A stretch of 64,000 nucleotides of DNA from a virus, in IMG/VR virus record IMGVR_UViG_3300043499_000197, positions 1 through 64,000 of that record. One strand, 5' to 3'. The translations under genes and the position numbers were made by a program. The notes under the pieces are model-generated. The model saw only the letters and a list, made by a program, of their open reading frames with translations. It was not told the DNA's origin and searched no databases. Below are positions 4,072-48,502 of the stretch, piece after piece (position 1 is the stretch's first letter; each line of letters starts with the position of its first letter).

Positions 4072-4074
4072 GCC

Positions 4075-5052: not shown

Positions 5053-5061
5053 GAGACAAGC

Positions 5062-6627
5062 ATGGGCTTCGCAGCAGGACTCAAGCAAGGCAGCGGCCTC
5101 GTGCAATCGGTGCTGGACAACGAGCGCCAAGCCGTGCTCGATGCGCGCGCCGCGGAAGAGTACGACTACAAGAAGGGCGAGCGCGAGCGCGTGAATCAGG
5201 CTTGGGGTGGCGTCGGCAAATTCGGACGCGAAGGCCCGGCTTCTTCGACCGCGATCCCGGAAGATTACCTGACACCCGAAGAGCGCGCCGTGCCGAAGCC
5301 CGCTGGTGGACTGGCGCCTCCTGCGCCCGCGGGTGGAATTGCGCCTCCCGCTGCGGGCCTCGCGCCCCCGGCTGCTGGCCTTGCACCTCCTGCTGCGCCG
5401 GCTGGCGGACTCGCGCCCCCTGCTGCACCTGCTGCTGGCCTGGCACCTCCTGCTGCCCCTGCCCCCGCCGCGGCCCCTGCTGCGCCGGCAACCTCGGAAG
5501 CGATGCAGCATGCGCGCGAGATGTTCAACGTGGCTGTCGCCAGCCGGGATGCGAACGCGGTGACGCAGGCCCGTACGAACATCGAAGCGGTAGACCAGCG
5601 CGAGATCCTGGGCAAGGTCGGCAAGATGACCCCCAAGGAGATTTCCACCTACGTGCAGCAGCATGCCAACCTGACGGACGGCCTGAAGATGTCCATCGCC
5701 GAGGCCGGCCCCGGCAAGTATCGGCTCACGACCTGGGGCAAGGACGGCATCGGGAAGGAGACGCTGCTCAACGGCGCACAGGCCCAGCAGTTGGCTGCTT
5801 CGCACATGCTGATGGAGAAGTACCCCGACAAGGGCATGGCGATGGCCGCTGGCGTGCACAAAGACCTCGACGCGATGGTCAAGGAACACAACGCCGAGAT
5901 GCTGGCCCAGAACACGCAGGCCAACACCGCCGTCCACAACTTCGACACCCAGCAGGAGACCGGGCGCCACAACCGGGCGGCCGAAGGCAACGCAGCAGCC
6001 AACACGGCGATCTCGCGCGAGCGTCTCGGGCTGGAAAGGGACAAGGCCACAGACGCCAAGAAGGACAGCAAGCTGGCGAGCATGGACATCGTGGCTTCCA
6101 ACAAGGATGGCTACGTGCTGATGAACAAGCGCGGCGAGCGTGAGTTCGTGCAGTACCCCGAGGGCGTGACCCAGCAGGACTTCGTCAAGAAGTACATGCC
6201 GCAGGGCGACACGGCGCCCAAGATCAACGCGGACGGCAGCGCTACTTTCAGGGGCGATCTCTACGAGAAGGACCCGAAGACCAACAAGTGGACCAAGGCC
6301 GAAGGGTTCGGGCCGTCTGCGATCGAAACCAAGTTCGATACCCTGATCAGCGGCAAGAACAAGCCCGGCGCAGCCAAGCCCGATGCGGCCAAGACTGCAC
6401 TAGAGGCTGGGCCGCCGCGCACCGCCATGAACCCGCCGCCCAACGCCCGGCAGGAGTTGGCCGAGCGTGCACAGAAAGAAGTCCAGGCCAAGACGGACCC
6501 GGAACTCGCCGCGCTGATGCAGCAGTACAACCAAGCCAGTGGCCGGCAAGCCGTCACCATTGGCCAGCAGATCAGGCAGATGCGCATGGAGCGCTACGGA
6601 CTGGAATCGAGCCCGCTCGGCTTGTAA
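5062..6627 (+). CDS. Internal virion / ejection protein, 521 aa
   Basis: ATG after a GGAGACAAGC ribosome site. Residues about 70-145 form a low-complexity linker with repeated GLAPPA units; the rest is helical and Lys, Gln and Ala rich (for example NTQANTAVHNFDTQQETGRH), typical of podoviral core proteins. It sits between the paralogue pair and the giant ejection gene, like gp15 in the T7 order gp14-gp15-gp16. No enzymatic motif was seen. Confidence 0.65.
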   Translation: MGFAAGLKQGSGLVQSVLDNERQAVLDARAAEEYDYKKGERERVNQAWGGVGKFGREGPASSTAIPEDYLTPEERAVPKPAGGLAPPAPAGGIAPPAAGLAPPAAGLAPPAAPAGGLAPPAAPAAGLAPPAAPAPAAAPAAPATSEAMQHAREMFNVAVASRDANAVTQARTNIEAVDQREILGKVGKMTPKEISTYVQQHANLTDGLKMSIAEAGPGKYRLTTWGKDGIGKETLLNGAQAQQLAASHMLMEKYPDKGMAMAAGVHKDLDAMVKEHNAEMLAQNTQANTAVHNFDTQQETGRHNRAAEGNAAANTAISRERLGLERDKATDAKKDSKLASMDIVASNKDGYVLMNKRGEREFVQYPEGVTQQDFVKKYMPQGDTAPKINADGSATFRGDLYEKDPKTNKWTKAEGFGPSAIETKFDTLISGKNKPGAAKPDAAKTALEAGPPRTAMNPPPNARQELAERAQKEVQAKTDPELAALMQQYNQASGRQAVTIGQQIRQMRMERYGLESSPLGL

Positions 6628-19100: not shown

Positions 19101-19223
19101 ACGTTGTGTGAAATCGATTAGCTCATCGTGAGACTCTGCCCACAGATGTTGCTTGGTCGCATGATTGAACAGGCAAAAGTAGCCCGTCCTGGGGAGCACG
19201 TCCCCATAGAATTTTGTAAGCAA
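16113..19223 (-). CDS. Primase-helicase: AEP-type primase plus DUF927-like helicase, 1036 aa
   Basis: TTG start after a G-rich ribosome site (GGGGGGTGAG); the TTG choice is uncertain. The N-terminal archaeo-eukaryotic primase signature shows RLDIDAG (Asp75 and Asp77), SSGEGLHIYW (His123) and RILRPPGT. A Cys cluster (TTCAEF, then CETC) follows near 330. The C-terminal half is a DUF927-like ATPase: RESARGKTA (Lys639), LPNIMDEMG as Walker B, LMTTNTSQ as sensor and DAIQRRLLEI as arginine finger. It should synthesise primers and unwind DNA at the phage fork with the polymerase at 25879-27846. Its stop overlaps the stop of the convergent giant gene. Confidence 0.85.
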   Translation of the reverse strand: MLTKFYGDVLPRTGYFCLFNHATKQHLWAESHDELIDFTQRYGNRPGIYFGTASYHSIANRKQSNVRALRALRLDIDAGAKKFSKDPSKNYATRKLALAAVIGFCKAADLPPSYIVSSGEGLHIYWCLDADCAPADWVPMAQGLQQRGVHHGLLIDSTCTLDTARILRPPGTIHHDTVRVAILQDTGHIWNVADLRGRLVSADIPSVPDMPAGKYDMSVNADVQIVHVQRPPVSAIAVAAKCAALHEAAAKGGDVPEPYWRAMLGLVKHTIEGEDLAHEWSMGHPNYDEEQTQRKLDLWTAGPTTCAEFANHTKACETCVYRGTVKSPVLLVEAPLLAAPTPVVQPAAVSVATPPAALPPPPALPPPPPTRPWEGRLPPGFTVRALTPGPGYEMVHEMPGDDDVDTGQPTVTLVAFASTVFWMGHWADSEGDNVARVQVYKLDPDGRSVSSFTLGQDVLAVQRDLIKVLGGERIHLTNNRKAHMAVHDYARSALQLIAHSGKRMQIGDHLGLRILPNGDLAATQGVHTIFKDGRIERSMLAKKLEDVAGQFQVPLPHEGVYGEWQPDVWPYVEERARRHVAFLKCHFGQPGMERFQLAIMMGLASPFMPFVTGEFQSGSVLPRGGLSVSLFSRESARGKTAAVQAAILAYGKPAALTNDGGALGATDMARVSRLTIHGTLPNIMDEMGSATPEQVANAVHMVANGASRERGNKEGGLNISAPWALINLMTTNTSQRDMIANVQESSDAIQRRLLEINVDGMPDHDLPSRHAFAQDLAVINRECTGALGAVIHREIVRMGLAAVTDLTMACVEKADKATGAKVADRFQYRGLGALLALHLTLAKLGIEVFPLKGIIDAFKVAHNSATDFIAENIISADGLANLSKMLHDLAPHTLVTEGETRLVNGRPDIEDRILNSSGRIPDVVHVRHIRSTGRSHLSVDASREWCRKHNIPETEIVKRGREEGVFKLFGKEGGPRKNSSEKFNLYKGLRQSTGTFIMCYTIDKRVLSRKLGIPEDDGLPTASTPPPPPTNVVPLR

Positions 19224-21348: not shown

Positions 21349-21713
21349 TAGTTGGGTCGCGGGTCATGAGCCCCTTTCAAGTGAGTGACTTCACGGGTGA
21401 CGATCTGCTGGGTGGAAGGGCCGACCGCGGCCAGGATCCAGGGGCCGATGTGCAGCAGCGGCACGCCGTCCATCACCAGGATCTCCGAGCCGTCCAGGAA
21501 CAGCGTGCGGTGCAGGCGCCCGGTCAGTTGCATTGGGGTCCAGCCGGTGCCGATGCGCATCTGGATCGCCTTGGTGATCTCGTCGTCCACCCACTGGGCG
21601 CAGCGCTGGGCGGCCTCGTCGGCCACCTGCTGGGTGCGCTCCCACTGGGCGCGCAACTCCTCGGGCACGTCGTCGTCCGACAGGTCGGGCATCGGGAAGC
21701 GGAGCTTCTTCAT
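21348..21713 (-). CDS. Early protein of unknown function, 121 aa
   Basis: ATGA overlap with the helicase gene upstream. The acidic N-terminus (DLSDDDVPEEL) is followed by helical and beta segments; no motif was recognised. The tight coupling suggests that it is made together with the SNF2-like helicase and may be a partner. Confidence 0.6.
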   Translation of the reverse strand: MKKLRFPMPDLSDDDVPEELRAQWERTQQVADEAAQRCAQWVDDEITKAIQMRIGTGWTPMQLTGRLHRTLFLDGSEILVMDGVPLLHIGPWILAAVGPSTQQIVTREVTHLKGAHDPRPN

Positions 21714-23290
21714 TTGTAATCCTTCACTGCGTCCAGCAGCACGGTTTGAAGGGATTGGCGATTGCGCAGTGCGGTGTACACGGCGCGCTCGATGGCGGTG
21801 GCCTCGATGTTGGCGATCAGCGTGGTGCGCTGCTGGCCGGGACGCACTGTACGTCCGTTGGCCTGCTGGTAGATGTCGTTGCTGTGGATCGGCGCGTACC
21901 AGATCGTGGTCGAGGCCTCGGTCAGCGTGAGCCCGTGGGACAGGGTGCCGGGGTTGGCCACGATGACGCGCGGGTTCTCGGTGCGCTGGAAGTTGCCGAA
22001 GATGACGTCGCGCTGGTGCTTGGTGACGTCGCCGTAGACCACCTCCACCTCCTCCTGGCCGTACTCGGTGCGCAACTCCTCGGCCACCCACAGGAGGGGT
22101 GCCGTGAGCGGCACGAACACCAGCACCTTGCCCTCGGACTCCTCGATCAGTTCCTTCACCAGCGCCACGCGCGGGTGCGCCGGGATGTGCACCTCGCCCT
22201 CGGTGCCGTAGGCCACGCCGCAGCAGATCTGCAGCAGCTTGGACAGTTTGATGGCGGCGTTGGCGGCGGTGATAGTACCGTTCGCGGCCTCGGTCTTGAA
22301 GTTGCGCATCATCTCGTCGAATGCTTTCTTCTGCTCGGCGGTGAGCGAGGTCTCGCGCGTGACGAACGTGGTCGGCGGCAGGTCGATGCAGTCGCGCGTG
22401 GCGAACCGGATCGCCGGCTGCATGACGCGCGCCACGGTCTGCGCAGCGCCCGCGCGCGGCACCCACCGGTAGGGGCCGACCTGATGCAGCACCTCGTCGC
22501 GGAAAGCCGTGAAGGCGCGCGGCACGTTGCGCGGCATGATGAGTTTCACCTGCGCATGGGCGTCGGTGGGCGAGTTGGGCGTCGGCGTGCCCGACATGCC
22601 CCAGACCCAGATCTTCGGCGGGCGCTGCTTCTGCGGGTTGCCGTTCACCAGCGCGTTGAGGAACCGGAAGCGGTCGGTCTGGGCGTTGCGAAAGCTGGCG
22701 ATCTCGTCGATCAGCACGATGTCGATCTCGGGCTTCATGCACAGTTGGGCGATGGTCTCGTTGTGCTTGAAGCCGTCGTGGTTGATCAGGTAGATGTCCG
22801 CGCTGGTGGCCAGCAGCTTGTGGCGGCGCTCGCGCGTGCCATGCAGGACAGCGAAGTTCAGGTGCGGGAAGTTCATGTAGATCTCGTCGCCCCAGGCCCG
22901 CTCCAGCGTGGACAGCGGCGAGATCACCAGCATCTTCCTCACCAGCTTCATCTTCTTCAGGTAGTCGTAGGCCCAGAGCGCCGACAAGGTCTTGCCCGAG
23001 CCCAGGCCGTTGAGCACGAACGCTCTCGGGTTCTGCACCATGAACTCGCTGGTGATCTTCTGGTGCGCGAACGGCTTGTGCCGGCCCGGCCAGTCGTAGT
23101 AATAGGCCATCGGGCTGGGCGCGTCCAGGCCGAGGTTGCGCAAGACGCGCACCTCGTCCAGGCGGTGCGGCACCGACACCAGTGTGTGGCCCTTGTACTG
23201 GAAGCCGCGGGCCGAGGGGATCAGGTTGAGGATTCGTTCGTGGTCGCGCAGGTTGAGGATCAGTTTTTGGTGCTGCGTGGATACCAGCAT
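21710..23290 (-). CDS. SNF2-like DNA helicase, 526 aa
   Basis: Superfamily 2 helicase with GLGSGKT (Lys100), LIDEIASFRN (Asp195 and Glu196), MSGTPTPNSP (motif III) and QANGRTVRPGQQ (motif VI), the last typical of SNF2 proteins. Phage SNF2 enzymes act on duplex DNA in replication, repair or recombination. The start carries an exact leader element (CCTCACCAAAGGA, 6 nt before ATG). It is coupled to the 121 aa gene downstream. Confidence 0.9.
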   Translation of the reverse strand: MLVSTQHQKLILNLRDHERILNLIPSARGFQYKGHTLVSVPHRLDEVRVLRNLGLDAPSPMAYYYDWPGRHKPFAHQKITSEFMVQNPRAFVLNGLGSGKTLSALWAYDYLKKMKLVRKMLVISPLSTLERAWGDEIYMNFPHLNFAVLHGTRERRHKLLATSADIYLINHDGFKHNETIAQLCMKPEIDIVLIDEIASFRNAQTDRFRFLNALVNGNPQKQRPPKIWVWGMSGTPTPNSPTDAHAQVKLIMPRNVPRAFTAFRDEVLHQVGPYRWVPRAGAAQTVARVMQPAIRFATRDCIDLPPTTFVTRETSLTAEQKKAFDEMMRNFKTEAANGTITAANAAIKLSKLLQICCGVAYGTEGEVHIPAHPRVALVKELIEESEGKVLVFVPLTAPLLWVAEELRTEYGQEEVEVVYGDVTKHQRDVIFGNFQRTENPRVIVANPGTLSHGLTLTEASTTIWYAPIHSNDIYQQANGRTVRPGQQRTTLIANIEATAIERAVYTALRNRQSLQTVLLDAVKDYK

Positions 23291-24754: not shown

Positions 24755-24855
24755 AGCATCGCTTGCACGATGATCACGATCACGATCACCACGATGGCGA
24801 TCGTGATCCACGGGACATAAGGCGCGTAGTCCCAGTTGTCCTTCTCGTCCTTCAT
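24751..24855 (-). CDS. Single-span membrane microprotein, 34 aa
   Basis: Starts by an ATGA overlap and ends inside the ATGA of the next gene. After 16 polar residues comes an 18-residue hydrophobic helix made mainly of Ile and Val. Function unknown. Coupling to two nuclease genes hints at a membrane-anchored partner or a small toxin-like helper. Confidence 0.7.
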   Translation of the reverse strand: MKDEKDNWDYAPYVPWITIAIVVIVIVIIVQAML

Positions 24856-25532
24856 CGCCGGTGCTCGCCGTGGTAGCCCTGCCAGTGGTCGCACTTGTCG
24901 CGCCCGACCGGGCACCAGCCGCACAGCCCGCTCGGCTTGACCGGCCAGTCGTTCCTTTCCTGCGCGATCTCCATGCGCTTCACGCGCGGCACGAACTCCT
25001 GCCAGATGACGGGCACGTCTTCCTTCAGGTAGGTCTCGGTGTCGATCCGGTTGTATTCCAGCCAGACGTAGCCGGCCTTGATCTTCTCCAGGAACGGATA
25101 CATGCCGAAGCCTGCAGCGCTGAACAGTTTCAACTGGTCGCTGTCCACCTTCGGCTTGCCGCTCTTCCAGTCCAGCACGACGCCGGTCTTGGGGCCGACG
25201 ATGGCCACGTCCAGCACGCCGCGGCACCAGACATCCTTGTCCCAGAAGCCGGTGCGGTTCAGGCTGGGCGTGATGCCGAACTTGATCTCGGCATGCTTCT
25301 GGCCGGTGGCCGCGCGCACGCGCTGCACGATCGGCTCGTACTTCTTGTAGAAGCCCACCATGGGCTCGCCGTTGACGCCGTTCTCCAGCGCCTTGTGGGT
25401 GGCCCGGCCTTCGGCCAGTGCCGGGGTGGTGGGCTCCACGACTTGCTTGCTGACCTTGGTCAGGTAGTGGCGCCACGGGCAGGTCTCGAAGGACTGCAGC
25501 GACGACCACGACCAGGGAATGACACTGGGCAT
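24852..25532 (-). CDS. RecB/Cas4-like PD-(D/E)xK nuclease, 226 aa
   Basis: SSLQSFETCPWRHYL near residue 11 and a C-terminal CGWCPVGRDKC supply four Cys, the pattern of the iron-sulphur cluster in Cas4 and AddB. The catalytic region has LDVAIVGPKTGVVLDWKSGK (Asp108, Asp121, Lys123). Probably a 5'-3' exonuclease for recombination-dependent replication or host DNA recycling. The ATG lies behind CTCACACCACCGGA, a distant relative of the leader element, and behind an operator-like site. Confidence 0.85.
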   Translation of the reverse strand: MPSVIPWSWSSLQSFETCPWRHYLTKVSKQVVEPTTPALAEGRATHKALENGVNGEPMVGFYKKYEPIVQRVRAATGQKHAEIKFGITPSLNRTGFWDKDVWCRGVLDVAIVGPKTGVVLDWKSGKPKVDSDQLKLFSAAGFGMYPFLEKIKAGYVWLEYNRIDTETYLKEDVPVIWQEFVPRVKRMEIAQERNDWPVKPSGLCGWCPVGRDKCDHWQGYHGEHRR

Positions 25533-25878: not shown

Positions 25879-27846
25879 TTATTTCGCACTCCCGTATCTG
25901 TGCGCTACCGCCCCTTCGGACCATGTGATCAGTTGTGGCCACCACTTGGGTGCCTTTCTTAGTATGAGTTGAAGATGCGAGAGCAAAGGTTCTGCCTCGC
26001 GCTCGGGCACCACGTAGGCGAGTTCATCGTGCACGCGCAACTTGGGACGCCAGCCGGTGTCCTGGAAATATTCCAGGCTGGCGTCGAACAGTGAGTCTCG
26101 CCCCAATGCCTGGACGATATTCTCGTCGGCTTTGGGGCCGTGGATGCGGGCACGATGGCGCCCGGTGCCATAGAACCAGGAGGTCTTGGGCATGCCATCG
26201 GGCCACGTGCCATCGGGCTCCTCGTGCAGGCCCGGGTAGCGGATCAGCCGCCCCGAGGGCAGCACGAATCCGTCCGAGCAGGTGGACACCAGCCCCCACG
26301 GATCGACTTGGCGCTCGACGCCGCGGTGGATCCAGCCGAGCGCGTCGCTCAGGATGCGCCAGCCGCCGCGCTTGCCGGCGATCTCGGGGTGGTCGGCGCG
26401 CCAGTCGTCCACGTGGGTCTGTGACTCATCGAGCGTGATGTCCAGCCCGCCGAGGGTCTTGGCCACGCGGATGAACGCCTCGGCGCCGGCGCCGAACCCC
26501 AGCCCCAGATTCTTCAGCTTCTCGATCTGGCGCTGGAACTTGCTCACCTGATCCATCGTGATGCCGTGCGCCAGGGCGCCGCTCGCGCGGTACAGGTCGG
26601 CCTTGGCGTCGGCGCGGAAGATCGCCATCGTGCGCGCCACCATCCACAGGAAGTGGTTGATGCGCACCTCGATGCCGGACTGGTCGGCCACGATGACCAC
26701 GTAGCCGGGCGGTGCCTGCAAGCACAGCCGCAGCGCGTCGCTCACCTTGGGGTGGTCGGGGTCGATGCGCGGCATGTTCTGCGCGTTCATGTTGTCGGTG
26801 CCCGAGTCGCGCCCGCTGGTGACCGCGCCGCAGTACAGCAGCGGCACCGGCAGCAGCCCCCCAGTGGCGCGCGCCACCTGCTGGAAGGTCGCGAGCCGCG
26901 TCTCCAGTTGCGTGCTCTTCACATCCAGCCGCACGCGCGCCGCGGTCGCCACGATCGGGTTGTCATGCTCCTGCAAGTCGATGAACGCCTGATCGGTTTT
27001 CGCCAGCGCCGGGATCAGCACGCCGTAGCTGGTGTTGGACGGCTTCATCGGCACCTGCACGCCAAGGCTTTGCAGCAGCTTGGCGAAGCGTGCGCTGCTG
27101 GCCAACTCGGAGCGCACGTGCTCGGCCAGCACGCGCTCGGCAGCCTCTTCATCGGCTGAGCCCCACACGATGTCGTCGGGGATGGCCAGCATCTCGCCCA
27201 GCGCGATCAGGTTGTCGTGCTTGCGGGCGCGCTCCATCTCGGCCGCGCGCTCCAGCATCGGCAGGTCCACCACGAACGCCGGCTCCACGCGCATGCGGAT
27301 CAGCAGGTCGATCTGCCACAGTTCCCGGCTGTCGTAGCAGGGCAGCAGGTGGTAGAAGATCTCGCGGCACTGCAGCGTGTCGTCCTCGTTGTAGACGCGC
27401 ATGCGCGCGATCTCGTCGGGCGTGAAGTCCACGAGGCGGCGGCCACGGGTCTGGATCAAGATCGTGTTGTCCTTGATACCCAGCCGCAGGTAGGCCACCA
27501 GCTTGCCCAGGCCCAGGCCCACCGTGCGCTTGTAGATCGGGCGCGCCATGGCCATCGAGCAGCCCCACATCTTGGGCCGGATGCCGCAGCGCCACGCCGC
27601 GACGTAACTGTCGAAGCCCTCACAGTTGTGGGCGATGACGTAGGCGTCGGACCAGTCGATGCTGGCCACCAGGGCGTCGATCTCCTGCTGGCCGATGGCG
27701 GTGCGCGCCTCGCCCTTGCGGCCGATGGCCACGGTGAGCGACTGCAACTCCCAGCGCGGGTCCAGGACGTACGCGGCGGGCGGCATCTTCGACAGGCTGT
27801 ACTCGGTGGACCAGTAGGTTTCGAAGTCGATGAACACCAGCTTCAT
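25879..27846 (-). CDS. Family A DNA polymerase with 3'-5' exonuclease, 655 aa
   Basis: The proofreading domain has FIDFETYW (Asp7, Glu9), VIAHNCEGFDSY and RVYNEDDTL. Polymerase motif A is VIVADQSGIEVR (Asp388), motif B RQIEKLKNLGLGFG (Arg439, Lys443) and motif C HDE at 606-608. Aligned with E. coli Pol I motif B, the position of Phe762 is Leu447 and that of Tyr766 is Phe451, an uncommon combination. No 5'-3' exonuclease domain. It should be the replicative polymerase with the primase-helicase. Overlaps the 34 aa membrane gene by ATGA. Confidence 0.95.
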   Translation of the reverse strand: MKLVFIDFETYWSTEYSLSKMPPAAYVLDPRWELQSLTVAIGRKGEARTAIGQQEIDALVASIDWSDAYVIAHNCEGFDSYVAAWRCGIRPKMWGCSMAMARPIYKRTVGLGLGKLVAYLRLGIKDNTILIQTRGRRLVDFTPDEIARMRVYNEDDTLQCREIFYHLLPCYDSRELWQIDLLIRMRVEPAFVVDLPMLERAAEMERARKHDNLIALGEMLAIPDDIVWGSADEEAAERVLAEHVRSELASSARFAKLLQSLGVQVPMKPSNTSYGVLIPALAKTDQAFIDLQEHDNPIVATAARVRLDVKSTQLETRLATFQQVARATGGLLPVPLLYCGAVTSGRDSGTDNMNAQNMPRIDPDHPKVSDALRLCLQAPPGYVVIVADQSGIEVRINHFLWMVARTMAIFRADAKADLYRASGALAHGITMDQVSKFQRQIEKLKNLGLGFGAGAEAFIRVAKTLGGLDITLDESQTHVDDWRADHPEIAGKRGGWRILSDALGWIHRGVERQVDPWGLVSTCSDGFVLPSGRLIRYPGLHEEPDGTWPDGMPKTSWFYGTGRHRARIHGPKADENIVQALGRDSLFDASLEYFQDTGWRPKLRVHDELAYVVPEREAEPLLSHLQLILRKAPKWWPQLITWSEGAVAHRYGSAK

Positions 27847-35737: not shown

Positions 35738-36099
35738 TGGAGTTCCTTCGGGATGTCGATCTCGTCGCCCAGCCTGTGGTAGACGTGGCAGCGCATAGCG
35801 GCGATGAGGGGGGTGGGTCCGCACACCTTAAACATCTCCATTGGCCGTAGAAACGAGTTCCATGCAGCCTCGCCGCTGTCGTGCCAAGGGTAGACCACGA
35901 TCCTTTCGCGCTCGATGATCGGGCCGCCCCAACCCCAGTTGGTGGAGGGATCGAAGTAGTCGATCACGTCGCTGACGTGGATGCCGTTGAACCGGCGGCG
36001 GATGGCGATGATCCCAGATGGGCTCACCGCCACCTCATGCCCTTCGGCCAAGCCCGCTGCCCAATCCAGGGCGGGGCCAATGAGGTCGGCGGCTTTCAT
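35734..36099 (-). CDS. DUF2591/NinX-like protein, copy 1, 121 aa
   Basis: Starts MKAADLIGPALDWAAGLAEG and contains DPSTNWGWGGPIIERERI, a close match to the DUF2591 consensus. Tandem paralogue of the preceding entry with identical DNA over the last codons, which also hold the ribosome site of the next gene. TGATG overlap with the M20 peptidase gene. Function unknown. Confidence 0.75.
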   Translation of the reverse strand: MKAADLIGPALDWAAGLAEGHEVAVSPSGIIAIRRRFNGIHVSDVIDYFDPSTNWGWGGPIIERERIVVYPWHDSGEAAWNSFLRPMEMFKVCGPTPLIAAMRCHVYHRLGDEIDIPKELQ

Positions 36100-37517
36100 C
36101 ACAGCCCCATCAGCTTGGCGAGCATCTCGTTGTCGGCCTGCAGCCGCGCGTTCTCGCGCATCAGCCAGACGATGCCCTCGACCGCCCACACCGAGTCGCT
36201 GTACGTGGCATCCTCGATCTCGGCGAACGTCATGCCGTGGAAGGGGTTGTCGAAGCCGAGCAGCGTGGCCGTCTTCTCGCCCGGCTTGGCCGTAGGCTTG
36301 GCCGCGGGTTTCGCACCGTTCGCCTTCTTCTGCTTGCCCCACTGGCGCTTCAGGTCGTCGTCATCGAACAGGTCGTCCATGCCGGCGAAGCGGCTGCCCT
36401 TGAAGGCCGCGCCCTTGTAGCTGGGCACCGGGTCCTTGGCGGCCGGGTCGCGGTCGATCGGCAGCGCCTCCCACTCGATCTTGGGCAGCGCCTGCGACAT
36501 CGCGAACAGGTGCGCATAGTCGAGCGTCTCGCCGCGCGTGTGCGCCATGTCATAGCCGCACGACAGGTTGACCACCTCGGGGATCAGCTTGCGGTAATCC
36601 TTGACGTCGGTGTAGGTGCCGGTCGTCGATTCCTTGTAGTCGAAGCCGTGCTTGGCCAGCATGTCACCCAGCCGGTGGGTGAACTTCGACGACGCGCAGC
36701 GCATGCCGCCCTGCACCGTCACGATGTCGCCGGTGTCCTTGCGGTCGAACGCCACCGCGCACTGGAACTGGCGCAGCCAGCCCGCGATCTTGTCGGCGTT
36801 GGCCTTGGCACTCACGCCCCCGCACTCCTCGCCGCGGTGGAACAGGTAGGTGCCGGGGCAGCCAGCCTCGATCATTTTCAGCATCAGCCAGATGCCCGCC
36901 GTGTCGTCTGCGCCCAGGCAGTTGCCGACGCCACTGCTGTCCAGCGCGATGGTGCCGAACACTGGATCGTAGGTCAGCTTCTTGCGGCTGGCCGGGTCCA
37001 GCATCTTGCCGTCCACGGTGTCCACGTGGCAGGAGAACAGCGTGGTCGAGTAGATCGTCGGGGTGTTGGCCACGGTGTCGCATTCCGCCAGCGGGATCGT
37101 GACCGAGAACGAGCCGGCCTCGCGCTCGGTGATCACGTGCTTCAGGTCCTTCACGATGTAGGTCTGCAGCCATCCCGTGAACGCCTTCTCCTCGGGCGAG
37201 TCGTGGCAGCGCGGCGTGCACAGCATGCCCACCAGCAGCGGATCGACTTCTACGGGCACCTCGTGCTGGGGCAGCATCACGCCCTTGGCCTCGACGGTCT
37301 TGGACCCGGTGCCATGCGGGTAGATCCACTTGGCCGGGCTCGGATCGGGGGTTGGCGCGGGGGCGGGTGCCGGGGCCTTGCCGAAGGTCTGCTCCAGGTG
37401 CGCGGTCAGCTTGTCCACCGGGCCGGTGGCCAGGATCGTCGCCGGCAGGTTGGCTTGGGGCGTGGCGCTGTCCACAGTCTTATCCACAGTGTTGGGCTTG
37501 GTGGTGTCGTCGGTCAT
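36099..37517 (-). CDS. M20-type zinc peptidase, 472 aa
   Basis: The dizinc site pattern is complete: SCHVDTVDG (His164, Asp166), GADDTAG (Asp204, Asp205), HRGEECGG (Glu230, Glu231), and later AFDRKD and DMAHTRGE. It is closest in style to PepT/M20 aminopeptidases. The MTDD start was chosen because a leader element (CCTCACCAACCCGAAAG) precedes it; an ATG at 37553, overlapping the previous stop, is possible. The C-terminal 100 residues are a linker and a helix. A peptidase in an early arm suggests peptide recycling or host-protein processing. Confidence 0.75.
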   Translation of the reverse strand: MTDDTTKPNTVDKTVDSATPQANLPATILATGPVDKLTAHLEQTFGKAPAPAPAPTPDPSPAKWIYPHGTGSKTVEAKGVMLPQHEVPVEVDPLLVGMLCTPRCHDSPEEKAFTGWLQTYIVKDLKHVITEREAGSFSVTIPLAECDTVANTPTIYSTTLFSCHVDTVDGKMLDPASRKKLTYDPVFGTIALDSSGVGNCLGADDTAGIWLMLKMIEAGCPGTYLFHRGEECGGVSAKANADKIAGWLRQFQCAVAFDRKDTGDIVTVQGGMRCASSKFTHRLGDMLAKHGFDYKESTTGTYTDVKDYRKLIPEVVNLSCGYDMAHTRGETLDYAHLFAMSQALPKIEWEALPIDRDPAAKDPVPSYKGAAFKGSRFAGMDDLFDDDDLKRQWGKQKKANGAKPAAKPTAKPGEKTATLLGFDNPFHGMTFAEIEDATYSDSVWAVEGIVWLMRENARLQADNEMLAKLMGL

Positions 37518-37549
37518 CTTGGTCTTTCGGGTTGGTGAGGGGTTGCGGC

Positions 37550-40444
37550 TCATTCTTGTCTCTCGGTGTTCAGGTTCGGCAGGTCACTGAAGCTGGTGCT
37601 TTCGTCGATCACGATGGGTGCGAGGCCGGCGCGGCGCAGTTCCACCAGCAGGGCGTCATCCTCCTGGGCTTGCTGGGCACGGACACGCGCGACGTTCTCT
37701 TCCAGCGAGAGCGCCGAACTGGCGGGCTGCAGGTGCGACAGCAGGTTGGCGGTATCGAGGCTGGCCGGGGGCACGATCACGAAGTTGGGCGCGGGCAGCG
37801 AGGCCTCGACCGCGGCCATCGCGGGCTCGATCCAGCTTTCATCGGGCACCCCCGTGATGGGCGCCGGCGCGTGGGGCCACGTGTTCGGGTCCCTGCCGGT
37901 GGTGGGCACCGGCCACGCGGCGGCCGGGTTCAACACCCGGCCCTCCACATAGGCTTCCACCTGCGCGGGTGTCACCACCGTGCCGAGCGCGGGATCGGGG
38001 TTGGGCTCGGCCACGGGGGCGAAGGGCCAGCCTAGCTCGCTCACCGTCCCATCGGCGTTGCGCACCGTTCGCACTGGCGTGTCGGCCGTCACGGCCTGCG
38101 GCCCCATCCCATCGGGCGAGCCCATCACCTGCTCCATGCGATCCAGCGCCTGCGCCACGTGGGTGGGCACCTCCTCGATCGGGCGGTTCATCATGCCGGC
38201 GGCCATCAGCCGCGGCCAGCGACGCACCACGGCCGTGGCCAGCGTGTCGTCCACCTCGGCGATCAGGCGGTCCATCTCGGAGTCGCCCAGCGTGTTCAGC
38301 GTGGCGATCACGGCGGCCGTGGTCGGCGCGGCTTCCACCGCATTGGCCTCGGCCATCGCCATCCCACGCTCGTGGTCGAACGCCTGCATGCCTTCGAAGG
38401 CATCCTTCACCACGCGCGCCCACGGCGGGCCGTTGGCATGCTGGTAGCCCAGCGTGCGCTGCATCCACTCGCTGTCCTTCTGCATCAGGAGGATGCCCAG
38501 CGCGGCCTCGTAAAGCTGGCGCGGCTCGGTCGGCTTGTTGTAGTGGGTCAGGGCGACGATGTTGTCGCCCGACTTGAACCACGTGCTGGCGCTCTGGAAC
38601 CCGTTGCTGAACGCACGCAGCATGCGCTGGTCGCGCAGGCGCCGATCGACATTGGAGTCCGGGTCGATGCTGCGGTAGGCCAGCTTGTAGGTCGGTTCGA
38701 ACAACTCGCGCACCTTCTCGGCCGAGATCACAATGTCGCGCGCGACGTCGGTCTTGGACATCCTGAAGGCATGGCCGCAGATGGTGATCGGCACCACGTT
38801 GCGTTCGTACTCCCAGGTGCCGTCCACCAACTGGTTCACCTCGTGGGTGTCGGTGATCACGCGCTTGCCGCCGCGCGTCACGGCCAGCCTCGGGTGGTCC
38901 CGGTGCGCCAGCCCGCGATAGCTGTTGTACACGGCCACCGGCAGGTAGCCCTCGGACTTGAGCGGCTTCACCATCGAGACGTGGGTGAAGCTGTTGCCGC
39001 CCTCCTTGTACAGCATCAGCGCGTCTTCCTTCTTGATAAAGGTGTGCACGCCACCCGCACCTTCGAGGTACACGCAATCGACACGCGCGTGGTAGGTCGC
39101 CCCGCCCGGATAGAACACGCTGTCCAGCAGGCAGACGCCGGCGGCTTGGCGCGTGGGCGCGTCGTTGAACCAACTGTCCATGCCGGGGATCGCCACCTTG
39201 TCGCGCACGGGGATCGTGCTGTAGATGTACTGCAGCTTGCCCTCGCGATGGATGCGCATCATCACGCGATCCTCGATCTCTTCCACCGCGGCCTCGATGG
39301 CCGAGCCGACCGTGCCGTCCTCGGTCACCCACAGCACCGTGGACACCTCCATCCGGTTGGCTTGCTTGCCGGTCAGCAGGCAGGTGTAGTGGAAGGTCGA
39401 GAGGTCGATCTCGGGCACCTCGACGTGCCCGTCCTGGGTCTGCACGCCCTTGGCCATGATGCCGGCCTTGGCGTAGGCGCGCTGCTGCTCGCCGGTCACC
39501 AGGGTGAAGAAGTCCTCGCCCTTGAAGCGCACCGCGTGCTCGGAGTCGAACGCGCGGTCCACGTTGGTGGCGTGGATGCCGCCGGCCGGATCGATCCACG
39601 GCATCACGATCATGGCGTCGTTGTTTTCGTCGAACGACGGGTCGCGCAGGATGCGCAGCTTGGCGCCGGCCAGCCCGCGCATGCGGTAGCCGTTGGCCTC
39701 CAGCTTCTTCCTCAGGATGGGGTCGCCATAGATGCGCACGTAGCGCTTGTCGTCGGGGTCGGCCGGGTTGATCCAGACCACGCTGCGCGATTTCACCGTA
39801 CCGTTCACGTCGGTGGTGTAGGCCACCCCCATGTTCGGGCTCGCATAGACCGCACTCGGGTGGTACTCCTCGTGGCCGAAGTGCTCCTCGTCGTAGCGCA
39901 TGCAGCCGGTGTCGCCGTCCATTTCGCGATAGACCTGGTAGATCGCTTCCACGGTCTCGGCCAGCTTGAAGCTGGTATCGAGTTCGCTGCGATGCTGCTG
40001 TTCCAGCCGCTGGATCTCGCGGTCGGGTGCCCACAGCAGGAACTTGCGCAGGAACCGCCCGATCGTCATGCGCTGCTTGCGGTCGGCCCGGCCTTGCACC
40101 GGGTCGGGCGTGAACGCGATCTCGGTCCTGTCGATCGGGCTCACGTGCGGCCACATCTGGCCGACACCGGTGTTGGAGGCCACCGTGCGCAGCCAGCGGA
40201 TCACGCTGGTCGGCTCGGGGTAGAACCCGACCGTCTCGCGGATTATGTCGCGCTGCAGCGGCCAGAGGTCGCCGCTCACGTGCTGCAGGTCGTGCACGTA
40301 CTGGTGGTCGGCCATCGGCAGGTGGTTCCCGGCCTGCACCCAGGCGCGCCCGATGTGGCTGCGGGTGCGGTTGAACACGTCATCGAACTGTTCTCGAGAC
40401 GTGATGTTTTGAGCCCATAAGGCTTTGGTTTCTTCGTTCGTCAT
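37550..40444 (-). CDS. Large early protein of unknown function, 964 aa
   Basis: Start at MTNEETKALW; the ORF extension upstream crosses a terminator and is not protein-like. The region about 180-280 (GDTGCMRYDEEHFG, NMGVAYTTDVNGTVKSRSVV, RYVRIYGDP) resembles a module in many large-phage hypothetical proteins (SCMRxx, GRALVW, RIY pattern). The C-terminal 200 residues are Pro/Ala-rich linker. No catalytic motif is clear. It follows an intrinsic terminator, so it may have its own promoter. It is the largest early gene and is followed by the M20 peptidase. Confidence 0.75.
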   Translation of the reverse strand: MTNEETKALWAQNITSREQFDDVFNRTRSHIGRAWVQAGNHLPMADHQYVHDLQHVSGDLWPLQRDIIRETVGFYPEPTSVIRWLRTVASNTGVGQMWPHVSPIDRTEIAFTPDPVQGRADRKQRMTIGRFLRKFLLWAPDREIQRLEQQHRSELDTSFKLAETVEAIYQVYREMDGDTGCMRYDEEHFGHEEYHPSAVYASPNMGVAYTTDVNGTVKSRSVVWINPADPDDKRYVRIYGDPILRKKLEANGYRMRGLAGAKLRILRDPSFDENNDAMIVMPWIDPAGGIHATNVDRAFDSEHAVRFKGEDFFTLVTGEQQRAYAKAGIMAKGVQTQDGHVEVPEIDLSTFHYTCLLTGKQANRMEVSTVLWVTEDGTVGSAIEAAVEEIEDRVMMRIHREGKLQYIYSTIPVRDKVAIPGMDSWFNDAPTRQAAGVCLLDSVFYPGGATYHARVDCVYLEGAGGVHTFIKKEDALMLYKEGGNSFTHVSMVKPLKSEGYLPVAVYNSYRGLAHRDHPRLAVTRGGKRVITDTHEVNQLVDGTWEYERNVVPITICGHAFRMSKTDVARDIVISAEKVRELFEPTYKLAYRSIDPDSNVDRRLRDQRMLRAFSNGFQSASTWFKSGDNIVALTHYNKPTEPRQLYEAALGILLMQKDSEWMQRTLGYQHANGPPWARVVKDAFEGMQAFDHERGMAMAEANAVEAAPTTAAVIATLNTLGDSEMDRLIAEVDDTLATAVVRRWPRLMAAGMMNRPIEEVPTHVAQALDRMEQVMGSPDGMGPQAVTADTPVRTVRNADGTVSELGWPFAPVAEPNPDPALGTVVTPAQVEAYVEGRVLNPAAAWPVPTTGRDPNTWPHAPAPITGVPDESWIEPAMAAVEASLPAPNFVIVPPASLDTANLLSHLQPASSALSLEENVARVRAQQAQEDDALLVELRRAGLAPIVIDESTSFSDLPNLNTERQE

Positions 40445-43198: not shown

Positions 43199-43383
43199 AC
43201 CCGGCTCTCCAGGTACTCGACGAGGTAGCGCGCGTAGTTGGGCACGAACACGTGGCCCTCGAACTCGAAGGTGGCGTCGCGCACGGGACGCGCATCGGCT
43301 ACCTTCAGCGCGGCCTTGAAGCGTTCGAGCTTCGGGCGGGTCCAGGTCACGCCGCCCCTGGGGCGGGGGGTGTGGTTGGTCAC
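43195..43383 (-). CDS. Early small protein, 62 aa
   Basis: GTG start within the GTGA overlap with the HTH gene stop; AAAGGAACCAA precedes it. Ends FEFEGHVFVPNYARYLVEYL, a recurring pattern in small phage proteins. Function unknown. Confidence 0.6.
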   Translation of the reverse strand: MTNHTPRPRGGVTWTRPKLERFKAALKVADARPVRDATFEFEGHVFVPNYARYLVEYLESRV

Positions 43384-44602: not shown

Positions 44603-44935
44603 TGCGCGCGCAGCGTTCTCTTGTTCGGCGAACTCGGCCATGCGCTTCTCGGCATCCGCTTCCTGGCCAGCGACCAATGCAGCGTAGCGTTGCGGGTGGA
44701 GTTGTTCGGCCAGCAGGTTGGCCAGCGTGGCCATGTTGCAGGCGCTGGTGTTCTCCAGCTTCTCGAAGGCACGCTCGCCCTCGGCACTCCAGTCGGGGAA
44801 CATGCGCTCCAATGCGAGGCGCTGTTCGAGTTGTTCCATGTGGTCGGACACGCACTTGCGGACAGCGATCTCGGCCAGCTTGCGTGGGGTGAGGTCGTTC
44901 AAGGCTTCGAAGGCCTGGATGGGGGTGATCTGCAT
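44600..44935 (-). CDS. Early helical protein, 111 aa
   Basis: ATG after AAAGGATAGTC. Helical and acidic (KLAEIAVRKCVSDHMEQLEQ, then KLENTSACNMATLANLLAEQ). No motif; function unknown. Confidence 0.65.
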   Translation of the reverse strand: MQITPIQAFEALNDLTPRKLAEIAVRKCVSDHMEQLEQRLALERMFPDWSAEGERAFEKLENTSACNMATLANLLAEQLHPQRYAALVAGQEADAEKRMAEFAEQENAARA

Positions 44936-44960
44936 GACTATCCTTTAAGTTGCAGTTAGG

Positions 44961-45257
44961 TTAAGCGCGGCGGTTGTCGCGCGGCTGGACATAGGTGCTG
45001 AAGTTGGTAGCTTGTTTGCCGGGTTGTGTCTCCCACTTGTTGGACTTGGCTCTCCATCCGGCCGGGATGACGGTCGAGTTATCAGGCTCGTGTGCGCTGG
45101 CTTCGCCTTTACGATCCACTAACAAGAAGGTGTGACCCTTCGGAATGCGGTTAGTGTTGCTGTTCATCCATGTTCGGGCTTGCGCCTTAGTGCTGCAAGC
45201 GTGGATTTGGTAGACAGACTTGCCGTTAAAGGCTACGTGCACTTGAGTTAAGGCCAT
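44961..45257 (-). CDS. Early protein, 98 aa
   Basis: The ORF is longer, but the start at MALTQVHVAFNG is fixed by TAAGGAG 6 nt upstream; the extension would run into the repeat region and is not protein-like. Alpha/beta pattern with a basic C-terminus (KWETQPGKQATNFSTYVQPR). Codon use is less GC-rich than elsewhere. Function unknown. Confidence 0.65.
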   Translation of the reverse strand: MALTQVHVAFNGKSVYQIHACSTKAQARTWMNSNTNRIPKGHTFLLVDRKGEASAHEPDNSTVIPAGWRAKSNKWETQPGKQATNFSTYVQPRDNRRA

Positions 45258-45450
45258 TAAGGGCTCCTTAGTGTAGGGGTTAACCCCCATGATTTCTGAC
45301 ATGAGGGGGGGTTGGTGCCGACATTTCCGACTGTTGGCAGAAATCGACACACAGCTTAATGTGGTTGATTTCATTGAAGATTTCACTGTGACAGTTTGTA
45401 CCTTCCGACATTTCTGACATGTTTCGAAACTCACTGTCCCCCGTTTCATG

Positions 45451-45468
45451 ACGTTAAGGGCTTAACGT
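45451..45468. repeat. 18-nt inverted repeat
   Basis: ACGTTAAGGGCTTAACGT is ACGTTAAG, two loop bases and CTTAACGT. Its inner part (TTAAGGGCTTAA) is complementary to TTAAGCCCTTA at 45482-45492, so an alternative fold is possible. Confidence 0.8.
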
Positions 45469-45703
45469 GAGTACACTGACATTAAGCCCTTAGCTAATTA
45501 GCGCTTCAGAAAATTCTTATGCGCGAGGGGTAGGGTTTTATGTAAGAAATCTCAGAAGTGTCAGAAATGTACAGGAAGAACACTTTCTGACATAGGCCGA
45601 CCGATTTCTGACAGTCAGAAGTCACTAAGGCTTAATAGGCCCCAAATGTCGCCCAAACCGTAGATGGCCGACACTTCAAGCCCAAAATGGCCGTTAATAT
45701 AAA

Positions 45704-45719
45704 TCGTCCCGTTCCTTTT
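45704..45719 (-). repeat. 16-nt repeat, copy 3
   Basis: Plus-sense TCGTCCCGTTCCTTTT, shared with 43671-43690 and 44583-44602. It lies in the non-coding region and is not followed by a normal start codon. Confidence 0.75.
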
Positions 45720-45749
45720 TCGCACTAAGCGGCCCTTAAGACCGCTTAG

Positions 45750-45801
45750 TTAGCTAACTTAAGGCCCTTAACAGCTAGTTAAGCGGCCTTAAGTTAGCTA
45801 A
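45750..45801. repeat. Long near-perfect hairpin
   Basis: A 17-bp stem TTAGCTAACTTAAGGCC / GGCCTTAAGTTAGCTAA, one unpaired base, then CTTAAC / GTTAAG and a 5-nt loop AGCTA. Flanking GCACTAAGCGGCC occurs as a direct repeat (45722-45734 and 45805-45817). It sits just after the stop of the 160 aa gene; without a T-tract it is not a standard terminator and may be a cruciform or protein site. Confidence 0.85.
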
Positions 45802-45832
45802 GCCGCACTAAGCGGCCTAGTTAAGAGGCTAA

Positions 45833-46315
45833 TTAGCCTTCGATGGTGCGTGCTGCGTCGTCCTTAGCAGTGTCGTCCTTGCCGATCAGCGCGCTAAGTT
45901 CAGCCACCATGCTGATAAGAACCATCTTCTTGCCCTTAGGCGCCTTGCCGTTAGACACAGCCAGTGCATGCAGGCCTTCGATGATCATGCAGAACGAGCG
46001 AGCCGTAGCCTTAGACGGGCGGCGCGCTTGTCCGAGCATCATGTCGATAACTAAGCGCTGTGCCTTAGGCACGATGCCTTCGTTAAGGACCTCGCGCATC
46101 AGGTTGCCGTAGTTGCCGTCCATGCACTGCTTAGCGAAGATTTCCATCATGAGGCGCTGACGTTCGTCCTTCGATGCGAAGCTGATCGACATCTCGAAGC
46201 AGCGCGGGTTGCCCTTCTTGTCGAAGGTGACCATGTGGCTGGTGGCGTTGCTCAGTGCGTCGGACACGGTGATCTCGCCGACGATGGAGGGTGCAGTGTT
46301 GGTGATCGAGTACAT
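45833..46315 (-). CDS. Early protein, 160 aa, first gene of the minus arm
   Basis: First gene read from the divergent region, with leader element CCTCACTAAGGA. Helical centre (ERQRLMMEIFAKQCMDGNYG) and a basic patch (MLGQARRPSKATARSFCMII). Lower GC than neighbours. No family recognised; an early host-takeover protein is plausible. Confidence 0.7.
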   Translation of the reverse strand: MYSITNTAPSIVGEITVSDALSNATSHMVTFDKKGNPRCFEMSISFASKDERQRLMMEIFAKQCMDGNYGNLMREVLNEGIVPKAQRLVIDMMLGQARRPSKATARSFCMIIEGLHALAVSNGKAPKGKKMVLISMVAELSALIGKDDTAKDDAARTIEG

Positions 46316-46424
46316 AAAAATTCCTTAGTGAGGTGAAACGTTGTAGCTATGCGGTCGCATGCCAGTTAACCCATAGTTCATAACGCTATGGGCTAACGGA
46401 CGTGTTGTCCTTCGGGTTGGTCTA

Positions 46425-46477
46425 GATACTTTGCGCGCCTCTCTAACTACTGGCGCTAACCGATACTTTGCGCGCCT
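46425..46477. repeat. 16-nt direct repeat
   Basis: GATACTTTGCGCGCCT at 46425-46440 and again at 46462-46477, 37 bases apart start to start. Exact. The meaning is unknown: a promoter-like or protein-binding repeat. Confidence 0.8.
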
Positions 46478-47090
46478 ACGTAAACCGGGCGCCGCTGTTT
46501 GTTCATCAGGTGACATCGCTACCTTTAGTCCTGCTTTCGGACGCCGCGGCTTGGCCACGGTAGTGCTAAGTAATCGTCGCCCACGCTCCGCATACGTTCC
46601 CCGTGCGACTCCGTGCCTTCTCATGCTGGCCTAGTTCGCTGTCCAATACCGTATGGTTCTGCGTGCTTTGATTCCGCTCACGAGCTATAAGCTTTCCTCG
46701 GCCTTTCAACCGGATTCCCCGTTAGGGCGCCTATGTCGCAATTCGCACATGCACATCAGTCAATCACGCGCTGATGGCGCGGACACGCTAACCCCTGCAC
46801 TCGCAACCCCGGTTTGTTTCCCGTCCGGGCGCCGCGCCATGCTTGGCCGCAACTGTGTCGTTCGCATGGCCTCGATACTCGCGTCTTGCGACGCGCGGAT
46901 TCCATGCTCTGAATTTTTAATGACCGCGACGTTTCGCTGCATCGCTAGGCTTAGGCGCGGGACGGAAGGCCTTTACAGGGGAATCCGTTGGCGCGCCGGC
47001 CGGTGCCGATGCTGCTAGAGCTTGGAGGCTCAGCCTGTAGGGACTGCGATCAGCCCCTACACACTAGGCGACGGGTCTACCTGCCCCCCT

Positions 47091-47119
47091 GGGGGCTGGG
47101 GGGCGAGGGAGGGGAGGGG
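47091..47119 (+). other. G-quadruplex-forming stretch
   Basis: Five G-runs of 3 to 6 bases separated by CT, CGA, A and A. This meets the usual pattern for a stable quadruplex on the plus strand, about 55 bases before the first operator-like palindrome of the late side. Confidence 0.7.
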
Positions 47120-47170
47120 TGGCCAGCCCTTATGTCCTGCACACAGTCCCCAGATCCTCTTCAGCACCTA

Positions 47171-47184
47171 GTAAACTACTTTAC
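47171..47184. promoter_or_regulatory. Operator-like palindrome copy 3
   Basis: GTAAACTACTTTAC, one mismatch to the perfect palindrome. 105 bases from copy 4 (start to start), about ten helical turns, so one protein could bridge the two. Confidence 0.5.
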
Positions 47185-47275
47185 ACACGGCAATCGTGCA
47201 AGCACGCTTCCGTGGCGCGCTCAGCGCCATAGCAAACGTGACGGCCCCAGCACCCAGCCCACACAGCCACACTAA

Positions 47276-47292
47276 GTAAACTAGTTTATATT
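47276..47292 (+). promoter_or_regulatory. Operator-like palindrome copy 4 with -10 box
   Basis: GTAAACTAGTTTAT contains the perfect 12-bp palindrome TAAACTAGTTTA, running into TATATT (47287-47292), a good -10. The same arrangement (palindrome then TATAYT) occurs at 21335 on the minus strand. It is about 110 bases before the first late gene. No clear -35 was found. Confidence 0.5.
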
Positions 47293-47403
47293 GGGCCCCC
47301 CGTGCAAACCCTGCCTTTTATGCACGTCACACTGCGCTATTAGAAAAGCGTGCCTGATAATCGCGTGCATCCCCGCGCCCGCTCACATCACCAGGAGATG
47401 CCC

Positions 47404-47547
47404 ATGGCCAGCGACGTCCCGCCCTTCGACAAGAAGAAGAAACCCGCCAAGGGGAAGATGCCGTTCCCGCCGGCCTCCAAGGCGGGAGGCCCGGCCCCCG
47501 ACAAGGGCGGCAAGAAGCCCAACCCGTTTGCCAAGAAAGGAGCCTGA
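47404..47547 (+). CDS. Small basic late protein, 47 aa
   Basis: Start at MASDVPPFDK after AGGAGATGCCC. Rich in Lys, Pro and Gly (KKKKPAKGKMPFPPASKAGG); probably disordered. First gene of the late arm, right before packaging genes. The function is unknown; it could bind DNA or act in packaging. Confidence 0.65.
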   Translation: MASDVPPFDKKKKPAKGKMPFPPASKAGGPAPDKGGKKPNPFAKKGA

Positions 47548-47549
47548 CC

Positions 47550-47714
47550 ATGGCCCGCAAATCAGGAACCCTCTCGATCCAGAAGAAGCCTTCCGTCCCT
47601 TCGGGCGGGCGCATGAACCCGACCATGGACCAGAAGACGATGCCCAAGGTGCCGTTGCCGGCCAAGGGCAAGAGCAGCAAGGAATCGAGCACCCGGATGC
47701 CCGGGCCGAAGTGA
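47550..47714 (+). CDS. Small basic late protein, 54 aa
   Basis: ATG after AAAGGAGCCTGACC. Basic and low-complexity (PKVPLPAKGKSSKESS), similar in style to the previous gene. Followed by a GCGCGC/GAA/GCGCGC hairpin (47727-47741) without T-tract. Function unknown. Confidence 0.65.
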   Translation: MARKSGTLSIQKKPSVPSGGRMNPTMDQKTMPKVPLPAKGKSSKESSTRMPGPK

Positions 47715-47755
47715 CGCTGCGCTAACGCGCGCGAAGCGCGCTCCCCGGATCGCAG

Positions 47756-48502
47756 ATGTCCGACTACGGCCTCGTCCTCCCCGACCATGACCTGACCGCG
47801 GCCGACTTCAAGGAGTTGGCGCGCCGTGTCGGGCGTGCCGCCTTCATGCCGCTGTTCCTGCGCTACTACGAGCGGGTGGTGACGAGCGAGGCGACGATCG
47901 AGGAGCAGCGCCGCGGGCTGGTGGACATCGCCCGGTGGACGGGTGTCGAGGAAGAGAAGAAGAGCGACCCGAACGCCAACCTGCCGGTTTTCCAGATCAT
48001 CTTCGGGCAGGCAGGCACCAGCGCGGCCAGCATCGAGGCGGTGGAGGTCATACAGCCGCCCACCCACGAGCCCTTGCCCACCCCTGACCCACGCGCACCT
48101 GACGCGCTATTAGACAGTGCGGCGGAACTGATTCCAGCGGACATGCTGAAATCGTTTGCTCACGACCTGGAAGAAGTGGCCCGGTCGGCGCAGCCGGCCG
48201 GATCACGCATGAAGGAAATAGCCGATGCCCAACCCCACGCCGCCCCATCCGCCGCTGCAGCACATGCAGACCCTCCCGCGCCTGTCGAACCCGGCCGATC
48301 CGCAGATCCACCGCCTGAGCCCGTTCGATCAGGCCCACCGGATTCCGGGCCACGGCTCGCAGCACACCGAGCGGGAATTGACTACGAGCGACCCCAAGGC
48401 TTACAACTTGCCCCCGCCGCCCCTGCCGAAACACGCGACGAGCCGGTAAGCCCCACCTTCACCCAGGCGCTGGCCGACCTGGACAGCCTGCTGGACATCT
48501 AA
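47756..48502 (+). CDS. Probable terminase small subunit, 248 aa
   Basis: It lies directly before the large terminase. The N-terminal 110 residues look folded and helical (TAADFKELARRVGRAAFMPL, then RGLVDIARWTGVEEEKKS), fitting a DNA-binding small subunit. The C-terminal half is Pro/Ala-rich and overlaps a nested gene (48225-48449), then ends with a regular helix (TFTQALADLDSLLDI). The small-terminase role is inferred mainly from position. Confidence 0.6.
   Translation: MSDYGLVLPDHDLTAADFKELARRVGRAAFMPLFLRYYERVVTSEATIEEQRRGLVDIARWTGVEEEKKSDPNANLPVFQIIFGQAGTSAASIEAVEVIQPPTHEPLPTPDPRAPDALLDSAAELIPADMLKSFAHDLEEVARSAQPAGSRMKEIADAQPHAAPSAAAAHADPPAPVEPGRSADPPPEPVRSGPPDSGPRLAAHRAGIDYERPQGLQLAPAAPAETRDEPVSPTFTQALADLDSLLDI
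48225..48449 (+). CDS. Nested small gene in the terminase small subunit gene, 74 aa
   Basis: Out of frame with the host gene, ATG with AAGGA 8 nt upstream. By hand count about 89% GC-ending codons in this frame against about 52% in the host frame over the same bases. Pro/His-rich protein (PNPTPPHPPLQHMQTLPRLS) ending in a basic tail. Function unknown; a small packaging or head protein is possible. Confidence 0.6.
   Translation: MPNPTPPHPPLQHMQTLPRLSNPADPQIHRLSPFDQAHRIPGHGSQHTERELTTSDPKAYNLPPPPLPKHATSR

Follow-up and report, generated by a model that had tools for sequence, protein, structure and literature searches.

Where does an uncultivated podovirus-like phage begin to copy its DNA? We asked this of the first 64,000 b (hereafter the window) of record IMGVR_UViG_3300043499_000197, a 65,423-b sequence. 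Its two ends share 135 b, with 3 differences near the end, so that the record probably spans the whole genome, of about 65.3 kb. Its genes form two divergent blocks. Early and replication genes run leftward from about 46.6 kb to 16.1 kb, and the terminase, portal and virion genes run rightward from about 46.6 kb through the end of the record to 16.1 kb. The replication genes include a DHH phosphoesterase and the following:

25879-27846: family-A DNA polymerase (PF00476)
24852-25532: RecB-like exonuclease
21710-23290: SNF2-type helicase

The nearest named phages, Pseudomonas phage Rollin and the Rhizobium phages RHph_TM, are distant (33% in TerL and about 30% in part of the primase-helicase). 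Three other items were seen in passing: a peptidase-like protein inside the early block (36099-37553, minus strand; phrog_4191, with a weak PepT-like NCBIfam match), one open reading frame of 3159 aa among the virion genes (6637-16116, plus strand), a candidate for a giant virion protein, and a selenocysteine tRNA called by ARAGORN antisense to early genes (43270-43360, plus strand), likely a false call.

Repeats and palindromes in the intergenic region

The initial annotation proposed an AT-rich noncoding region as a candidate replication origin with an initiator-binding array, or else as a regulatory array. The region and its neighbors contain the following features:

45833-46315, minus strand: first early gene, 160 aa, beside the array
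45258-45832, no strand: the full candidate origin, intergenic, 575 b with 46% G+C, flanked by two early genes of the same direction
44961-45257, minus strand: next early gene downstream of the array
45293-45301, plus strand: outlying exact iteron TTTCTGACA
45324-45343, both strands: outlying near-iterons TTTCCGACT (plus, 45324) and TTTCTGCCA (minus, 45335)
45357-45370, minus strand: IHF-like site AATCAACCACATTA; the consensus WATCAANNNNTTR, exact in many relatives, is one base shorter
45402-45419, plus strand: left iteron array, two 9-bp tandem units, CTTCCGACA and TTTCTGACA
45420-45540, no strand: core between the inverted arrays, 121 b, 45% G+C, counterpart of the core of about 100-120 b in relatives
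45541-45567, minus strand: right iteron array in inverted orientation, with three tandem units of 9 bp, TTTCTGACA, CTTCTGAGA and TTTCTTACA (read on the minus strand)
45584-45592, plus strand: outlying exact iteron TTTCTGACA
45605-45621, both strands: exact iteron (plus, 45605) overlapping an inverted CTTCTGACT (minus, 45613), which creates the palindrome TTCTGACAGTCAGAA at 45606-45620
45641-45832, no strand: module of YTAR words (TTAAG, CTAAG, TTAGC) and palindromes
45750-45801, no strand: long hairpin, 17-bp perfect arms, 18 b between the arms

The repeats and the composition that had been described were all recovered. The G+C fraction of the region is 0.459 versus 0.654 for the genome. The five exact copies of TTTCTGACA, in both orientations as claimed, lie at 45293, 45411, 45584 and 45605 on the plus strand and at 45559 on the minus strand, and there is no sixth in the window or in the full 65,423-b record; shuffles of the window held 0.21 copies on average, and 0 of 100 reached five. 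With up to one mismatch allowed, 7 sites were found in the region and 2 elsewhere, and with up to two mismatches 12 and 42, respectively. Repeated 9-mers formed 56 pairs within the 575 b, whereas 1000 shuffles gave 1.4 on average and never more than 8, and the iteron part and the TTAAG part each exceeded all 1000 dinucleotide shuffles in this measure. The palindromes were also confirmed: TTCTGACAGTCAGAA is perfect around its central base, and ACGTTAAGGGCTTAACGT (45451-45468) has perfect 8-bp arms with GG in the center. To this description we add a 9-bp tandem register and an inverted layout. The units at 45402 and 45411 are exactly 9 b apart, those at 45541, 45550 and 45559 on the opposite strand are spaced by exactly 9 b, and the tandem pair thus faces an inverted tandem triple over the core. 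The region gave no DNA match to named phages and no match to an Rfam family; the near-identical strain L009 covers it from 45684 onward.

The long hairpin had also been noted in the initial annotation. It is formed by the TTAAG/CTAAG/TTAGC words, is lengthened by folding (z -5.4) and is identical in L009. TTAAG was indeed concentrated (16 in 45200-45832 versus 5 in the rest), but TTAAG/CTAAG words are not limited to the noncoding bases and continue into the coding part of 45833-46315. At 44900-46640, 45 YTAR words were counted in 1.2 kb versus 10.6 expected and 4 for the reversed words, and positions 1-1000 of the Rollin locus held 44, with 1 reversed word. The words may be a second family of binding sites, priming sites or a terminator. 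We considered whether the initiator reads stem-loops rather than iterons, as was proposed for pRN1 and phage BIP-1, whose proteins carry an archaeo-eukaryotic primase, an SF3 helicase and a winged helix (PMC4234260). The strength of the hairpin suits this idea. In origins of that type a large stem-loop lies downstream (3') of the replication gene; the hairpin here is at the array, 26 kb away. Against the idea, the YTAR words were enriched only in the window and Rollin and not in the other 19 of 21 phages tested, whereas iteron arrays recur. We therefore dropped these words as a family-wide feature, and we regard stem-loop reading as highly improbable.

Within the early operon, the array separates the first gene from the second. 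An open frame (44961-45449, minus strand) reaches into the region, and its likely start is the ATG at 45257, just downstream of an AGGAG-like site. This placement, together with palindromic and inverted sites that suit a dimeric regulator, would fit a transcriptional operator array, at which a regulator of the phage would bind the iterons and act together with IHF to switch the early operon. Phage operators are also known for motif turnover, so the change of repeat word between relatives described below fits as well. On the other hand, no sigma-70-type promoter was found at 44900-47800 (1.1 expected), no regulator gene was recognized among the proteins searched, the flanking gene varies among phages that share one word, and the combination of inverted arrays, core and IHF site looks more like an origin. 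We consider the operator reading unlikely.

The variable flanking gene also bears on the identity of the iteron reader. Loci L028, L030 and L032 share TAATCCA/TTATCCA-type words, and the genes beside their arrays look non-homologous by eye. Because the gene differs between phages sharing one word, the first early gene (45833-46315) is probably not the reader. When it was compared with its counterparts in L011, L016, L027, L028, L030, L032, L035 and L041, this gene seemed to be swapped among several apparently unrelated families at one fixed place. In some relatives, GC hairpins with T runs, terminator-like by eye, follow the first early gene and precede the array (L016 2180-2220, L019 8375-8410, L041 8110-8145 and L014 19130-19160) and would shield the array from transcription of that gene; no clear hairpin of this kind was seen between the two in the window.

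Recurrence of the array and of IHF sites in relatives

A terminase profile gave 80 loci, of which 45 had enough upstream sequence to be scanned, a few short contigs being omitted; in each, we took the 600-b segment richest in repeated 8-mers. In 24 of the 45 relatives the strongest segment lay 1.7-3.4 kb upstream of TerL and beat the best downstream segment, and in 20 of these 24 its G+C was at least 5 points below that of the locus. In five larger relatives, each contig has the array at a single position, which is 1.9-2.2 kb upstream of TerL. The repeated word of 8-10 b changes between lineages, nearly every one having its own (ATTATCCA, AATTAGACA, AACAATCTA, ACTATCTA, CTTTACAC, CTTAACAC, TTTGTCCA, AAAGTGTCA, TATACCACG in L011, and others), while the plan recurs. 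A scan with a single word found three tandem TTGGATAA-type units (8-bp period) in 35 contigs, most of which showed a left unit, a core of about 100 b, a right triple, 7-8 b and then TAANNNNTTGAT. The pattern of the window's own tandem units had a single match in viral contigs (L132). Rollin has its own repeat words, AAAAGGTAGTAAC and CTTTGCATA, its array being at about 0-0.9 kb; the RHph phages have an AT dip with two exact IHF sites, where iterons are not clear; neither the low-G+C terminase relatives nor BcepC6B showed such an array. Outside the iteron arrays, second dispersed repeat families were seen near small genes in L027 (7080-7960) and L032 (6400-7400), with the palindrome-like words ACACTAGCGGGTAGTGTG and GTGTGTATG, respectively.

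The sequence that follows the array in relatives is the exact IHF consensus, WATCAANNNNTTR, and it stands exactly 7-8 b after the array in 18 of 22 distinct cores of the contigs with TTGGATAA-type triples (near copies removed). In all, 30 array regions contained 31 exact consensus sites versus 1.57 expected from shuffles, and 19 of the 30 had at least one. The remaining 571 kb or so of the loci held 12, so that the density was 1.15 per kb versus 0.021 per kb, a difference of about 55-fold. An iteron plasmid-like origin would have iterons, an AT-rich unwinding region and an IHF site; the intergenic region here has the iterons and the low G+C, with a near-match to this site. Because AATCAACCACATTA is one base too long, a role for IHF is less well supported in this phage.

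In most relatives the terminase genes begin 2-3 kb downstream of the array, which could instead be a packaging site whose repeats are bound by the small terminase; lambda cosB is a site of this kind and likewise contains an IHF site. Symmetric arrays that flank an AT-rich core, however, are unlike cos. Furthermore, the AT-rich IHF region of RHph_TM3_14A (19.4-20.1 kb) adjoins early genes, whereas TerL (11.4-12.7 kb) is about 7 kb away. A packaging function thus seems very improbable to us.

The primase-helicase as candidate initiator

The initial annotation named HTH proteins and the primase-helicase as candidate ligands of the repeats. The latter proved to be a good candidate, whereas none of the proteins searched qualified as a separate HTH ligand.

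16113-19223, minus strand: candidate initiator, 1036 aa, with a primase-like N-terminus, a DUF927 helicase and a C-terminal winged helix
16191-16469, minus strand: its C-terminal domain (residues about 919-1011), the predicted origin-reading winged helix

The helicase region matched PF06048 (E 4.9e-9, 36.7 bits over a cutoff of 22.6). By sequence, the nearest solved structure was SCCmec Cch (5dgk, E 4e-4); NF047345 was matched with E 4e-4, far below that model's cutoff. No TOPRIM family match was found in Pfam, and an invariant DxD and SGxGxHxYW in the alignment point to a primase of the archaeo-eukaryotic type. The C-terminal 90 residues were modeled as a winged helix. The model, which covers the last 240 residues and was built from 9 sequences, had a mean pLDDT of 70.6, with the C-terminal domain mostly at 75-93 except for one weak loop. 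Its best structural match was SaPIBov1 Rep (8tch; Foldseek E 9e-3, probability 0.99; Z 10.1, rmsd 2.9, 109 residues aligned), and it also matched TcpK (5vfx, Z 9.3), whose structure entry includes a complex with oriT DNA, and Cch (5dgk, Z 7.7). When a relative that uses a different word was modeled, likewise from only 9 sequences and with a pLDDT of about 70, Cch (5dgk, Z 9.4) and SaPIBov1 Rep (8tch, Z 8.2) were the best matches, and 5vfx had Z 7.6; the rmsd of this second model is high because two domains were aligned at once. These predicted folds make the primase-helicase the likely reader of the iterons.

All 7 larger contigs with arrays (G001-G007) encode the protein, as do two further relatives, Rollin and RHph. 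The partial contigs behind L019, L027, L032 and L105 did not yield it, and arrays are present in the L032, L027 and L019 fragments. A profile search with the divergent primase alignment gave nothing, the conserved stretches being too few. A "putative integrase" of RHph_TM3_14A (L096 18240-21323; MN988472.1 42239-45322) matched the primase-helicase of the window and is probably misannotated.

A proposed origin and its comparison with known systems

With the recurring plan in relatives, the density of IHF sites and the predicted SaPI-Rep/Cch-type winged helix, the origin proposed in the initial annotation gains support, and we consider it quite likely that 45258-45832 is a replication origin whose iterons are bound by the winged helix of the primase-helicase and which is opened by inverted helicase rings. 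We infer the following course of events. Copies of the C-terminal winged helix would bind the TTTCTGACA iterons, and two self-loading helicase rings, positioned by the inverted arrays, would come to lie face to face on either side of the core; DNA bending at the IHF-like site would aid their assembly. The rings would then open the core, the primase part would make primers, and the family-A DNA polymerase would extend them, probably bidirectionally along the two divergent gene blocks. GC skew had been suggested as a check. In the window genome and in Rollin its turning points do coincide with the array, and in RHph they lie close to it, but these are also the positions where transcription diverges; skew is therefore consistent with an origin and supports it weakly, and we rejected it as proof.

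The best reading, by analogy, is an iteron origin that would work like that of SaPI but at a distance from its initiator gene. The SaPI replicon of Staphylococcus aureus (SaPIBov1 Rep) shares with the phage a DUF927-type AAA+ helicase, multiple short iterons and the C-terminal winged helix, the last as a predicted fold. Unlike in SaPI, a primase-like part is fused at the N-terminus, the group has IHF-type sites, and the genome is that of a phage rather than a satellite. SaPI and SCC origins adjoin their own initiator genes, on the downstream side in replicons of the SaPI/Cch type, whereas here the array (45.3-45.6 kb) is about 26 kb from the gene (16.1-19.2 kb), near which no TTTCTGACA occurs. 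Because this defining adjacency is absent, we do not class the window as a SaPI replicon. SCCmec Cch resembles the phage protein in DUF927 and in the C-terminal fold (5dgk, with NF047345 weak), and the C-terminal domain of Cch2 binds direct repeats with 5-nt iterons; however, Cch has no primase fusion, and its putative origin is beside the gene, with replication in vivo not shown for it. In P4 alpha, a primase, a helicase and a winged helix are joined in one protein that binds repeats at the origin (PMC4234260), but that primase is of the TOPRIM type (PMC4234260) rather than archaeo-eukaryotic-looking, and the iteron words differ. Rollin and RHph_TM have the same kind of primase-helicase, an AT-rich region at the start of the early block and IHF sites; the repeat words of Rollin are different, and the database records examined carry no origin annotation in this region of either.

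No mapped origin for this podovirus group was found in the literature searched. If our reading is true, the whole group would gain a location, a layout and a protein for the initiation of replication, and initiators of the SaPI-Rep type would occur not just in staphylococcal islands but also in phages with Gram-negative hosts.

The most interesting part is the turnover of iteron words in a fixed frame. In the PLE satellites, iteron words and origin-binding domains of RepA are replaced in an arms race with the origin-cutting nuclease Odn of ICP1, which may select for the turnover (PMC8263062), although PLE has a RepA_N-type initiator and iterons of about 30 bp. We suggest, tentatively and as less than an even chance, that this mostly uncultivated podovirus group keeps one origin, with one place and plan (inverted arrays, core, IHF site), in which each lineage's change of iteron word is accompanied by a change in the surface with which the initiator's winged helix reads it; the pressure could come from satellites, from superinfecting relatives or from nucleases that cut the origin. 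Such a natural series of words could show how a winged helix shifts its DNA specificity, and whether parasites drive the change. The C-terminal domain did not prove to diverge faster than the remainder of the primase-helicase, its divergence being no greater than that of the helicase part. In contig L171, where, as in eight others, neither such an iteron array nor TerL was found, the primase-helicase (3516-6518) is an apparent natural recombinant: its first 200 residues are 89% like G002, and its helicase and C-terminal domain are 95% and 89% like G003, respectively.
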